DNA of 64,000 bases from Arboricoccus pini (GTDB lineage: Bacteria; Pseudomonadota; Alphaproteobacteria; Geminicoccales; Geminicoccaceae). A model generated the notes under the pieces. It saw nothing but the letters and a program-made list of their open reading frames with translations. It had not been told where the DNA came from and did not search any database. Shown in pieces: positions 5,036 to 15,893 of this stretch. Position numbers and translations under genes: made by a program. The DNA lies in NCBI RefSeq assembly GCF_900187945.1, contig NZ_FYEH01000004.1:124001-188000 (forward strand), read 5' to 3'. The number at the start of each line of letters is the position of its first letter. The stretch's first letter is position 1.

Positions 5036-5156
5036 GCTCAAGCAGCCCAAAGCGCGGTAGCCGCTGGGAACTCCGGCTCAAGCAGCGCCAAGCACTGCCT
5101 GCCAGCCGCCAGCTTTGTCTAGCGGCCCTGGCCTGGGACCGACCCAGGGTCGTGCC

Positions 5157-12020: not shown

Positions 12021-13040
12021 CCCCATGGCCGGGGCCACATGGGTCAAGATCGCCTCGATGACGTGAATATTGTAGTCGACGCCCAATTGGTTCGGCACCG
12101 TCAGCAGCAAGGTGTCCGCCTCGGCGATCGCCTCATCCTGCCGCAGCTGCTCGACCAGGCGCTCAGGCTCGGCGGCATAGCTCCGGCCGAAGATCGCCCG
12201 CGTCTTCTCGTCGATGAAGCCCACATGGTCGTCATCCGACCCGCTTTGGCCGAAATAAGCGCGGTCTCGATCATCCATCAGGGCGAAGATGCTCCGGCTC
12301 ACCGAGACACGCGGCACGCGCGCATGCCCGGCCTCCTTCCAGGCCAGGCGATAGGCTCGGATCTGGGCTGCCTGCTGAACATGAAAGGGCTCGCCGGTCT
12401 CGTCGTCCTTCAAGGTTGAACTCTGCAGGTTCATGCCGGCCTTGGCCGCCCATACCGCCGTCGCGTTCGAGCCGGCACCCCACCAGATCCGCTCGCGCAA
12501 CCCTTCTGAATGAGGCTCGACCCGCAAGAGACCCGGTGGGTTGGGGAACATCGGTCGCGGATTCGGCCGGGCAAACCCCTCTCCGCGCAAGACCTCGAGA
12601 AACGCTTCCGCATGCCGCCGACCCATCTCGGCGTCGCTTTGCCCCTCCGCCGGCCGATAGCCGAAATAACTCCATCCATCGATCACCTGCTCGGGCGAGC
12701 CTCGGCTGATGCCCAGTTGCAAGCGACCGCCCGAAATCAGATCCGCCGCCCCTGCATCCTCAGCCATGTAGAGCGGATTCTCATAGCGCATGTCGATCAC
12801 GGCGGTGCCGATCTCGATCCGCTTGGTTCGCGCCCCCACCGCCGCCAGCAGCGGAAACGGCGCGGCCAGCTGCCGGGCGAAATGATGCACGCGAAAATAA
12901 GCCCCGTCCGCCCCCAGCGCTTCGGCCGCCACGGCGAGCTCGATCGACTGCATAAGCGCATCGCCAGCCGAACGCGTCCGCGACTGCGGCGACGGCGTCC
13001 AATGGCCAAATGACAAAAACCCGATCTTTTTCACGCCCAT
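12012..13040 (-). CDS. LLM class flavin-dependent oxidoreductase (luciferase-like)
   Basis: A 342-residue TIM-barrel flavoprotein of the bacterial luciferase superfamily. It begins KKIGFLSFGHW, and ALGADGAYFRVHHFARQLA near residue 45 is the luciferase-like motif in which the usual E-H pair reads R-V-H-H. IEIGTAVIDMRYENPLYMAEDAGAADLISGGRLQLGISRGS is summarised by its parts IEIGTAV, DLISGGR and LGISRGS, all typical. It probably oxidises a small molecule with reduced flavin; the substrate is unknown. An upstream extension is possible in frame but reads as non-coding arginine/serine-rich text, so I start at ATG 13040. Confidence 0.88.
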   Translation of the reverse strand: MGVKKIGFLSFGHWTPSPQSRTRSAGDALMQSIELAVAAEALGADGAYFRVHHFARQLAAPFPLLAAVGARTKRIEIGTAVIDMRYENPLYMAEDAGAADLISGGRLQLGISRGSPEQVIDGWSYFGYRPAEGQSDAEMGRRHAEAFLEVLRGEGFARPNPRPMFPNPPGLLRVEPHSEGLRERIWWGAGSNATAVWAAKAGMNLQSSTLKDDETGEPFHVQQAAQIRAYRLAWKEAGHARVPRVSVSRSIFALMDDRDRAYFGQSGSDDDHVGFIDEKTRAIFGRSYAAEPERLVEQLRQDEAIAEADTLLLTVPNQLGVDYNIHVIEAILTHVAPAMGWR

Positions 13041-13129
13041 CCTGCCCGTCCCAAAACCAACCGACCGCCCATGGCGACAAGAGACACTACGCGCCCGATG
13101 GGAATGGCACAAAGGCAAGGGCGTGAGGA

Positions 13130-13173
13130 GGAAGCCTTCGGCGACCAGGAGGCACCGCCTCCTGGACCTGGGG
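13130..13173 (-). repeat. 44-bp hairpin repeat, copy A (REP-like), minus orientation
   Basis: The core at 13145-13165 is a perfect 9-bp stem (CCAGGAGGC / GCCTCCTGG) with loop ACC. Read on the minus strand it matches copy B at 14071-14114 over the whole 44 bases, with about six differences; the difference in the stem is compensatory (A-T here, G-C there), and the loop reads GGT in both. Copies A and B lie in opposite orientation on either side of the orphan gene at 13250-14020. Confidence 0.65.
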
Positions 13174-13249
13174 GCGATGGGTGGGTCGGACAGCGGGCGG
13201 CGCATGAGAGCTATTGTATAAGGACTATATTCCCTGTACAGTGGGCCCC

Positions 13250-14020
13250 ATGGACTGGACCGATCGCCTCGCCCCCAAGCCGCCACGGCGCCGCTACCCC
13301 TTCTGGGCCAGGCGCGACCGCAGGCGCACGGCCCAGGCCATGGCGGCCGGACGCAGTGCCGAGGAGATGGCGCTCGTCAATCGCGTGCCCGTCATGGAAG
13401 TCGAGAAGCTGCTCCGGGATGAGGAATTCCAGGAGCTGCTTCGGCATTACAGCGCGGTGGCATCGCTCCCTTATGAGGAGCGCATCGCCCGGCTGGCGCC
13501 CCTGGCGCTCTCCATCCTGGAGATGGGGCTGGAGACGGGCGACATGCGGGTCGCCATGTTCGTCCTCCATGAGCAGCACCGGGGCCGCGATCCGGCCCGG
13601 AGCATGGCCGAGCGCTTCGTCGCCCGGGCCGAGGCCGCCGCGCGGGAGACGCAGCCCAGGCCCGAGCGTCGCCTACCCGTACCGCCGGCCGAGCCGCGCC
13701 AGCCGCCGGGCGACTGGAGCCATTGCGCGGCGATACCCGAGCACCAGGAGGAGGCGGAAGCGCTGGCCCTGGCCGATCTGCGCCGGGTGGCGCGGGACAA
13801 CCGGGCTGAGCTGAACCGGCTGGCGGACAAGCTGGCGTCCGAGGCCGAGCGGATGGGTACAGGTCTCGGGCCGAACGCCTTGCCCTCGCTTCGCCTTGAG
13901 GCGGTGGCACGAGGTGTGGCGCGGTACTGGCACGAGCGGCCGGCGGAGAGCATGCAGGCGGCGATACGCTTGCAGGGTGCGAGGAAGATCGGCCGCTACG
14001 GGACCGGCCCGCCCTCGTGA
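13250..14020 (+). CDS. Orphan hypothetical protein between inverted hairpin repeats
   Basis: A 256-residue soluble, strongly charged protein that I do not recognise. The N-terminus (MDWTDRLAPKPPRRRYPF) is basic. Residues ~25-55 (AEEMALVNRVPVMEVEKLL) could form a helix-turn-helix reminiscent of small terminase or other DNA-binding proteins, which is only a resemblance. A second helical block (LALSILEMGLETGDMRVAMFVLHEQ) follows, then a proline/arginine-rich linker and a C-terminal helical region. An in-frame TTG at 13214 would add 12 residues, but the ATG at 13250 gives the more protein-like start. An AT-rich patch with TATATT (13226-13231) about 19 bases upstream could be the -10 element, giving a nearly leaderless message; no ribosome binding site is seen. 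Confidence 0.6.
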   Translation: MDWTDRLAPKPPRRRYPFWARRDRRRTAQAMAAGRSAEEMALVNRVPVMEVEKLLRDEEFQELLRHYSAVASLPYEERIARLAPLALSILEMGLETGDMRVAMFVLHEQHRGRDPARSMAERFVARAEAAARETQPRPERRLPVPPAEPRQPPGDWSHCAAIPEHQEEAEALALADLRRVARDNRAELNRLADKLASEAERMGTGLGPNALPSLRLEAVARGVARYWHERPAESMQAAIRLQGARKIGRYGTGPPS

Positions 14021-14070
14021 TGGTGGCCGCCTGAAACCCGGACCTCACCCGCACTGGCAACCCCGCCCCA

Positions 14071-14114
14071 CCCCGGGTCCAGGGGGCGGTGCCCCCTGGC
14101 CGCCGGAGGCATCC
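14071..14114 (+). repeat. 44-bp hairpin repeat, copy B (REP-like), plus orientation
   Basis: The core at 14079-14099 is a perfect 9-bp stem (CCAGGGGGC / GCCCCCTGG) with loop GGT. It is preceded by CCCCGGGT and followed by CCGCCGGAGGC. It is the inverted partner of copy A at 13130-13173. A weaker partial copy (GGGGGCAGCCGGAGGC) appears near 14154-14169. Confidence 0.65.
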
Positions 14115-14390
14115 CTGCTGTCTCGCAGCGAGACGGCGATCATCAGATCGCCGGGGGCAGCCGGAGGCTTTGCATCTCCTCGGGCGAGACGGTCCATCGA
14201 CTGGCACTGTGGTCATGTCGGTCGCGCATTGGCCGGCATGGATCGGCGTTGCCAAATGGAGCCGAAGGTGCGCCGAGACATCGCCTGGAACGGGCTCTAC
14301 GTCCACCTCACGTCCGACTAGGGCCGCTATTTCAACGACATCGCACGTCTGCTGCTCTGACGGGGGCGCCGCCCCGCCCCGAGCGCATGG
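14115..14390. other. Spacer without a supportable gene
   Basis: This stretch holds short G/C-rich repeats related to copy B, and a forward reading frame (14238-14321, product ending NGLYVHLTSD) that continues past its stop in a protein-like way (GRYFNDIARLLL). It may be a fragment of a decayed gene, but I cannot name it. A GGGG/CCCC hairpin at 14361-14376 may end the minus-strand operon that finishes at 14391. Confidence 0.3.
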
Positions 14391-14483
14391 CTAGCCGAAC
14401 AAAGCCGAGGCGTTGATGACGGTCATGATGACGCCGAAGGCAAGGGGGATGCCGACGACGAGCCAGCGAAGGGCGAGGTTCAT
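14391..14483 (-). CDS. MFS transporter small subunit (30 residues)
   Basis: A very short gene encoding one hydrophobic helix with the pattern LRWLVVGIPLAFGVIMTVI. This matches the W-x-x-VGIPL-x-x-GV-x-x-T motif of the tiny proteins that sit directly after OFA-type (oxalate/formate antiporter-like) MFS genes and are annotated as MFS transporter small subunits. It starts three bases after the stop of the MFS gene on the same strand, so translation is almost certainly coupled. Role inferred from the family: a partner helix of the transporter in the inner membrane. Confidence 0.75.
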   Translation of the reverse strand: MNLALRWLVVGIPLAFGVIMTVINASALFG

Positions 14484-14486
14484 GGG

Positions 14487-15893
14487 TCAGCTCCGGCCAA
14501 AGGCGACATTGCTCGGGTTGAGGGGGCGGCCCTCGTCGTCCAGGGGGGCCTGATCGTCGTGATGGTGGTGCGACGCCACTGGCCGGACGAGCAGGTTGCA
14601 GACGAAGCCGACGGCGAGCAGGCCCGCCATGATATACATGGTGAAGGTGTAGGCATCGGCCTTGGCCACGCCCGAGGCCAGCTGGTAGTCGCGGATATAG
14701 TTGACGAGGACGGGTCCGAGGATGCCCGCGACCGACCAGGCGGTCAAAAGGCGGCCATGGATGGCACCCACGTGCATGGTGCCGAACATGTCTTTCAGAT
14801 AGGCCGGGATGGTGGAGAAGCCGCCGCCATACATTGAAAGGATGACGGCGTAGCAGCAGACGAAGAGGACGATGTTGCCGGTATGTCCGGTCCAGGGCAC
14901 CAGGGCGTAGAGGACGATGCCCAGGAGGAAATAGATGGCGTAGGTGGTCTTGCGACCGAGATAGTCCGAGGCCGAGGACCAGAAGAATCGGCCCGCCATG
15001 TTGAAGAGGCTGAGGAGGCCGACGAAGCCGGCGGCCGCGGATGCGGTGATGACGCCCGGGAACATTTCCTGGCTCATGGCCGAGGCTTGGCCAAGGACGC
15101 CGATGCCGGCTGTGACATTCAGGCAAAGGACACCCCAGAGCAGCCAGAATTGCGGGGTGCGAATGGCCGTGTCGGCGTGGACATGGGCCTTGGTGATCAT
15201 GGCCGTGGCCTTGACCGGTGGGGTCCAGCCTTCGGGCTTCCAGTCAGTGGCGGGCACGCGGATGGTGACGACGCCAAAGAGCATGAGGGCGAAATAGAGG
15301 ATGCCCATGACGACGAAAGTCTGTGCGACGCCGACGTCGGTCGGGCTGGCGAAGTAGCGCATCAGCCAGACGGCGAGCGGCGAGCCGATCATGGCACCGC
15401 CGCCAAAGCCCATGATGGCCAGGCCTGTCGCCATGCCCGGGCGGTCCGGGAACCATTTCATGAGCGTGGAGACGGGCGAGATATAGCCAAGGCCCAGGCC
15501 GATGCCGCCCAGGGCGCCATAGCCCAGATAGACGAGCCAGAGGGAATGAATGGAGATGCCGTAGGCGCCGACGAAGAAGCCGCCGGCAAAGCAGCAGGCG
15601 GCCGCCAGCATGGAGCGGCGTGGACCGCCCTCCTCGACCCACCGGCCGAAAATGGCGGCCGAGAGGCCGAGAAAGGCGATGGCGATGGAAAAAATCCAGC
15701 CAATGTCGGTAAGCTTCCAGTCGTCGGGTGTCGACTGGGTGATACCCAGGAGCCTGGTCATCGGCAGGTTGAAGACGCTGAACGCGTAGACCTGACCGAT
15801 GCAGAGGTGAATTGCCAACGCCGCCGGCGGCACGAGCCAGCGATTGTAGCCGGGCGGTGCCACGATGCGCTCGCGCGAGAGGAGTCCTGCCAT
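14487..15893 (-). CDS. OFA family MFS transporter (oxalate/formate antiporter-like)
   Basis: A 468-residue inner-membrane transporter with twelve hydrophobic segments. It opens with a short basic leader (MAGLLSRERIV) and the segment AIHLCIGQVYAFSVF, typical of the OFA family. Other family marks are GGIGLGLGYISPVSTLMKWF, PDRPGMATGLAIMGFGGGA and GRFFWSSASDYLGRK. OFA transporters carry small carboxylates in exchange or with protons; the substrate here is unknown. The tail is histidine/aspartate-rich (HHHHDD). I start at ATG 15893, because 130 additional in-frame residues upstream overlap the kinase gene and read as shadow sequence. It lies 85 bases after the xylulokinase gene and is followed by its small subunit. 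Confidence 0.9.
   Translation of the reverse strand: MAGLLSRERIVAPPGYNRWLVPPAALAIHLCIGQVYAFSVFNLPMTRLLGITQSTPDDWKLTDIGWIFSIAIAFLGLSAAIFGRWVEEGGPRRSMLAAACCFAGGFFVGAYGISIHSLWLVYLGYGALGGIGLGLGYISPVSTLMKWFPDRPGMATGLAIMGFGGGAMIGSPLAVWLMRYFASPTDVGVAQTFVVMGILYFALMLFGVVTIRVPATDWKPEGWTPPVKATAMITKAHVHADTAIRTPQFWLLWGVLCLNVTAGIGVLGQASAMSQEMFPGVITASAAAGFVGLLSLFNMAGRFFWSSASDYLGRKTTYAIYFLLGIVLYALVPWTGHTGNIVLFVCCYAVILSMYGGGFSTIPAYLKDMFGTMHVGAIHGRLLTAWSVAGILGPVLVNYIRDYQLASGVAKADAYTFTMYIMAGLLAVGFVCNLLVRPVASHHHHDDQAPLDDEGRPLNPSNVAFGRS

Follow-up and report, generated by a model that had tools for sequence, protein, structure and literature searches.

Insertion sequences consist of one gene between inverted ends, and target-site duplication is found in many, not all, of their families. 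The unit described here, at 13134-14168 of a window of 64,000 nucleotides (the whole stretch of Arboricoccus pini DNA that was analysed, from genome G000), resembles an insertion sequence in its length of about 1 kb, its inverted ends, its single gene and its dispersed, nearly identical copies. However, it has no recognisable transposase and no visible target duplication, its ends are made of serial hairpins, and its mosaicism is strong. Two published accounts (PMC3116915, PMC3733652) take a Y1 transposase and a GTAG tag as the defining marks of RAYT/REP systems and describe REPs as inverted hairpins around a gene, extragenic and located behind stop codons. The REPtrons and "TIRtrons", in the part of Di Nocera et al. 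(2013, PMC3733652) considered, are like the present unit in having inverted palindromic hairpins around one gene, in being extragenic and mostly downstream of coding regions, and in having stems that vary yet keep pairing; by contrast, the present gene is not a recognisable Y1/HUH gene, there is no GTAG, the gene is found in 18-29 copies and the exact hairpins are rarely solo. The same part of that work reports CGTC-tagged REPs, mostly from alphaproteobacteria, without a dedicated transposase. The present unit likewise combines REP-like hairpins with a genome in which no matching transposase was found, but its tips lack CGTC, most copies compared have 9-bp GC-rich stems with loops of 3-4 nt, and its hairpins are tied to a gene. 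One proposal is that REPINs arose from REPs on either side of an autonomous selfish element (PMC3116915). The present unit would match such an ancestor in having inverted REP-like ends almost only together with the enclosed gene, whereas its protein does not match the RAYT domain model. No published description of the element was found in searches confined to open-access papers. On balance, we consider 13134-14168 to be probably one copy of an insertion-sequence-like mobile repeat that carries a self-repressing DNA-binding protein, with a recombinase perhaps supplied in trans.

An earlier note on this DNA had described a 44-bp inverted pair around a single gene. The pair is real: positions 13130-13173 and 14071-14114 are 86% complementary (38/44), and a repeat search returned them as the longest inverted pair within 12500-14800. 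Both repeats contain the 9-bp stem and GGT loop that had been noted, and the stems differ by one base pair, a compensated change from A-T to G-C. The suggestion that the hairpin is under selection was supported by further variants that keep the pairing, with nine pairs in seven of the eight stems compared and seven pairs in the other. The extent of the repeats needs correction, since the right outer tip reaches 14168 and the left tip lies at 13134. The window copy has a short left end, and its right end retains the outer module of a long form (Table 1). Purine-rich stretches were also seen by eye outside many other tips, and TTCCTCCTC-like stretches outside right tips (16 left and 16 right flanks). 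An Rfam scan of 12800-14400 returned a single match, far below the gathering score and in the neighbouring gene. A role of the hairpins as intrinsic terminators was put aside, as no T-run was seen by eye after the stems. Between the right end and an MFS-transporter-like gene, window positions 14170-14390 hold short ORFs that are possibly gene remnants.

Table 1. Features of the window copy; stem halves of the left and right hairpins are given in the same reading orientation.
Feature	Start	End	Strand	Basis or remark
Purine-rich stretch GAGGAGGAA	13125	13133	.	Directly outside left tip; from sequence
Left end, short form: tip GCCTTCGGCGACC and hairpin	13134	13173	+	Repeat and tip searches
Left hairpin, 9-bp stem CCAGGAGGC/GCCTCCTGG, 3-nt loop	13145	13165	.	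Sequence, stem comparison
Sigma70-like promoter with operator-like palindrome	13214	13242	+	By eye and pattern searches; TTGTAT (13214-13219), 17-bp spacer (13220-13236), TACAGT (13237-13242), 7 bp to ATG
Orphan gene (256 aa); all-helical by prediction, with a low-confidence candidate for an N-terminal HTH	13250	14020	+	ATG at 13250, stop codon ending at 14020; ORF list begins at an earlier TTG
Right end, inner module, tip GGCCGCCGGAGGC ending at 14110	14071	14110	-	
Right hairpin, stem CCAGGGGGC/GCCCCCTGG	14079	14099		Within inner module
Right end, outer module	14111	14168	-	Also part of long end form
Outer-module hairpin TCTCGCAGCGAGA	14121	14133		
Outer-module hairpin CGGCGATC-ATCA-GATCGCCG	14134	14153		
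Outer tip GCCGGAGGC			-	

The genome assembly (4,065,473 bases in 28 contigs; 99.3% complete) is broken at this repeat. A genome-wide search with the left repeat (E <= 0.001) gave 17 matches. For the 16-base tip GCCTYCGGCGRCCAGG, there were 32 exact and 13 one-mismatch matches, versus none for a reversed control; these many matches exclude a chance origin of the window's inverted pair. The element is not limited to the two places first described, and the observation of a pair, although correct, falls short of the full picture: the window holds one of 18-29 copies, a range given because the 5'- and 3'-parts all sit at contig ends. The close-subfamily alignment of the ~1-kb unit has 29 rows (7 full copies, 11 5'-parts and 11 3'-parts), with no stop codon or indel in the ORF; the start codon is ATG in 17 of 18 rows and ATA in the row from contig C7. 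A protein search of the genome gave at least 18 matches (18 scored of 65 candidates), comprising seven full-length matches at 96-100% identity, contig-end fragments and more distant copies with identities of 85, 68 and 51%. With the N-terminal profile, there were 27 genome matches, diverged paralogues included. At position 176k of contig C14 lies a relic, of which no more than the right end and the final ~26 codons are left. The proposal that the gene moved as a unit with its repeats is well supported, since the ends recur unchanged in many dispersed copies whose flanks differ. As in an insertion sequence, the copies are near-identical and their ends are defined. We infer actual transposition of the unit from this dispersal and the shared ends.

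Several further observations concern related sequences in the same genome. At the start of contig C7 (L005), a 5' part has its left end and promoter intact, whereas its start codon is replaced by ATA. The gene also has a second subfamily, which lies at the starts of contigs C13 and C24 (L146, L147) and at their ends (L072, L075), broken at the contig ends. DNA resembling the 3' end of this subfamily contains two copies of another REP (GCTCAAGCAGCGCGAAGCGCGRTAGC type) and a CCAGGAGG hairpin. A copy of the REP-like hairpin GCTCAAGCAGCGCGAAGCGCGRTAGC, with two mismatches, is present at window positions 5036-5061; allowing up to 3 mismatches, this hairpin has 16 sites in the genome, some of which directly follow diverged members of the orphan gene family.

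The left tip GCCTYCGGCGRCC was found in 16 of the 18 copies having a 5' part, and the right tip in all 18 copies having a 3' part; C20 and C22 were read directly from their loci. The two copies without a left end, C27 and C6, have other upstream DNA. A long end form with serial hairpins was identified at the left ends of C10, C3, C26 and C5, all of which are contig-end fragments, and at the right end of the C14 relic; the C3 left end and the relic right end agree at 92 of 95 bases. Like an insertion sequence, the unit has terminal inverted repeats, with the long form at one end per copy at most: none of the copies whose ends were read had it at both. The unit may once have had two long ends, an ancestral terminal inverted repeat of ~95 bp, the shorter ends being deletion forms. 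The long-form hairpin had 13 genome matches. All of them belong to gene copies or to the relic, or else adjoin a right hairpin at the end of a contig (C2, C21). Among the exact tips (12 left-type and 20 right-type), 29 of 32 were at copies or fragments of the close subfamily. The exceptions were three right-type tips (C2, C13 and the C21 end), of which the first and the last are truncated where their contigs end; the C13 sequence resembles the 3' end of subfamily II. These counts of solo tips refer to exact tips; one of the 13 one-mismatch tips is copy C27, and the other 12 lie outside the count.

In six copies with both tips, the longest word shared between the 20-base flanks was 3-5 bases, and no target-site duplication was recognised. 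According to a rough codon-usage gene call, 14 of 31 junctions were within 35 bp of the stop codon of a neighbouring gene, none of the 31 was within 35 bp of a start codon, and none was inside a called gene. Copy C23c is flanked by a pair of convergent genes, from which it is separated by 4 and 19 bp.

The earlier description of the layout as REP-flanked or REPIN-like holds for the REP-like architecture and is not supported for a strict REPIN, there being no Y1/HUH (RAYT) match in this genome, no GTAG at the tips read and hardly any solo exact tips. A RAYT is missing from the G000 assembly: PF01797 (Y1_Tnp) had no match in G000 or in G003, a second genome of the family, although an identical search did detect it in 6 of the 31 genomes from the order and in 5 of the 14 controls. 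No GTAG tag was present at the tips, which were mostly preceded by purine-rich DNA (16 left ends); GTAG was seen in flanking DNA elsewhere, away from the tip. No large REP population away from the gene was found with exact tips, and two end patterns revealed no autonomous element with the same ends in this assembly, which is broken at these repeats. No recombinase for the ends was identified in the genome by a transposase survey that covered Y1_Tnp.

The copies show strong signs of recombination. Over the eight longest, 472 of 946 informative site pairs had all four gametes (fraction 0.50), and at least 12 recombination events are needed; clonal simulations of matched diversity (300 runs each) gave mean fractions of 0.013 and 0.042, with maxima of 0.17 and 0.44. 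Gene conversion between copies is the natural reading of this mosaicism, and C27 and C6 may be conversions onto older copies that had their own promoters. The anatomy, copy number and mosaicism of the unit are direct observations on this assembly. For every one of the 21 pairs among the seven full copies, dS was 0.08-0.15 and dN/dS 0.07-0.22. The substitutions confined to a single row were nine synonymous and nine non-synonymous (neutral expectation, ~2.5-2.9 non-synonymous per synonymous), and constraint at the tree tips is therefore weaker than the pairwise dN/dS suggests.

The view that the gene belongs to no recognised family was borne out by profile searches (Pfam, PHROGs and NCBIfam), which gave no convincing match and, in the case of Pfam, no transposase, so that the recognisable transposase of an insertion sequence is lacking. 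The best matches, to UvrB (E 0.018), a phage tail family (E 0.082) and a sigma factor model (E 0.0086), were each obtained with one member among 10 homologues and were rejected. The best PDB-sequence match, to a "CAP REPEAT" repeat protein (2.7e-8, residues 24-64), was not taken as homology. Fold searches, including the PDB, returned nothing at E <= 0.001; the best VIA Z values were 5.4 and 5.1, and such values may mean only a common arrangement. The predicted structure is all helical and confident only for residues about 50-130. The putative HTH region comprises predicted helices 20-31, 37-44 and 51-54, with pLDDT values of 43-59 over residues 11-50. Over the 10 homologues, no D, E, H, Y, S or C residue is invariant; a catalytic role is nevertheless conceivable because E91, E108 and T204 are nearly so. 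In the seven closer homologues, E50, H66, Y67 and E108 are invariant.

The spacer of the promoter-like sequence contains a palindrome, in which the window copy is one base off (TTCCCT versus TTCCTT in most copies). Pattern WAGGANNNNNNTCCTNNTA had 13 forward and 13 reverse matches, the palindrome often matching both ways, which correspond to 15 loci, versus two matches for a reversed-pattern control. Promoters of the orphan gene family account for 14 of these loci, the remaining one being C15:216839. Of 20 chosen family promoters (six genomes), 11 contain the strict core AGG-N7/8-CCT, compared with 341 of 12,789 background stretches (2.7%); it is missing from the other nine chosen promoters, including that of the window. 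These sequences point first of all to the protein acting on its own promoter, an action on the hairpins being conjectural, and autorepression through the putative operator is likely.

At E <= 0.001, 11 of the 31 genomes searched from the order had a member of the orphan gene family, and all 11 genomes belong to one taxonomic family. A search of 385 genomes from across the class (E <= 1e-6, with at most 11 candidates scored per genome) detected it in three, which again come from that taxonomic family. Each of the six genomes of genus g6 had one match, and the three promoters read (L013, L012 and L015) were of the same kind; the shared promoter type in these single-match genomes would fit an autorepressor older than the mobile form. 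In G005 (L013), from this genus, the gene lies between a nadE-like (NAD-synthase-like) and a dus-like (dihydrouridine-synthase-like) gene, as judged from their translations. G003 had eight matches at six loci, which include a 2-kb duplication (95% over 2,081 bases). The family genes there adjoin arrays of the hairpin GCCTCAAGCAGCGCGAAGCGCGGTAGGC, for which that genome has 56 matches at up to 2 mismatches, many of them at family genes, some inside the frame and others away. A link between this gene family and hairpin repeats is thus seen a second time, with another hairpin. The 3' parts of family genes at L021, L023 and L010 of G003 hold in-frame REP copies translated as PPQAARSAVGEG-like repeats, which we take to recall the Rickettsia palindromic elements inside genes.

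The hairpin is not exclusive to this element, as the right-hand hairpin was recovered from 20 stretches elsewhere (L194-L213): 18 from Desulfovibrio/Desulfovibrionaceae (14 from one MAG), one from Humidesulfovibrio and one from Acetobacteraceae. The eight inverted tip pairs within these stretches enclose no common gene. In the Desulfovibrio-type and the one Acetobacteraceae MAG, the right-hand hairpin is a plain intergenic repeat, and hairpin and gene are thus separable. An identical hairpin module common to Desulfovibrionaceae and an Acetobacteraceae MAG represents a hairpin repeat crossing phyla. No relatives were found in viral contigs, GTDB r220 contigs, plasmids or phages; for the viral and GTDB r220 contigs, this absence is weak because one or two short peptide patterns were used, with which the G003 genes were missed too.

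It is conceivable, though improbable in our view, that a host regulator family was amplified by ordinary duplication and gene conversion, with hitch-hiking REP-like hairpins and no transposition. Such a history would be consistent with the strong mosaicism, the lack of a visible target duplication, the diverged paralogues L070, L144 and L145, which have no visible hairpin ends of this kind (by eye), and the fact that in Desulfovibrio-type MAGs and in the Acetobacteraceae MAG the same hairpin is an ordinary intergenic repeat. However, the copies end at the same tips, with different flanks and inverted left and right ends, where a segmental duplication need not stop, and C23c is fitted between convergent genes with gaps of only 4 and 19 bp. 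The orphan protein might instead itself be the recombinase and the founder of a new transposase family, recognising the hairpin ends much as RAYTs do REPs and acting in addition as a repressor of its own promoter. This is unlikely, given that the protein has no convincing match to a transposase model and no invariant D, E, H, Y, S or C over 10 homologues, and that the single matches and like promoters in genus g6, with the nadE-like/dus-like setting in G005, suit a host regulator; yet it is the sole gene inside the unit, which by insertion-sequence logic would make it the transposase, the exact tips are found almost only with it, and in G003, too, the gene family is present more than once, together with arrays of a hairpin that differs in sequence. 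The invariance of E50, H66, Y67 and E108 in the seven closer homologues and the near invariance of E91, E108 and T204 in ten would also agree with it.

In a stronger form, to which we give little credence, the protein would found a non-HUH, non-DDE class of hairpin-end mobilisers, with hairpin ends and gene moving together in a state like that of a REPIN ancestor. A classical REPIN/RAYT system, with the gene as a degenerate or cargo-replaced RAYT element, is very improbable and already largely refuted: the inverted, extragenic hairpins around the gene and behind stop codons do recall the systems described in the considered parts of PMC3733652 and PMC3116915, but G000 and G003 lack PF01797, the printed tips have no GTAG tag and there is no solo population of exact hairpins.

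In the mobile repeat with a recombinase supplied in trans that we favour, hairpin-rich inverted ends bracket one gene with its own promoter-like sequence, in scattered copies often placed directly behind the stop codons of neighbouring genes. The long end of ~95 bp would be the ancestral terminal inverted repeat, from which the shorter ends may have been derived by deletion. The protein would be an autorepressor binding a TAGGA-N6-TCCTA-like palindrome between its own -35 and -10 elements, and autorepression would keep the expression of each copy low, as do regulators of selfish elements. The recombinase acting in trans would recognise the ends, with the protein serving as a regulator or accessory end-binder; this is the weakest step. 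Gene conversion would afterwards shuffle and homogenise the copies.

CGTC-type REPs are reported to lack a dedicated transposase (PMC3733652), and the present unit offers 18-29 hairpin-ended copies of a gene that is not a recognisable transposase, in a genome where a RAYT was searched for and not found. Either this gene encodes a mobiliser of a new kind, or a regulator that represses itself became the cargo of a hairpin element driven in trans. If true, the first of these would be a lead to what moves transposase-less REPs in alphaproteobacteria. Within one genome, the copies amount to a population in which recombination is heavy and the protein is nevertheless kept, and which would therefore be suitable for the study of selfish-DNA dynamics.
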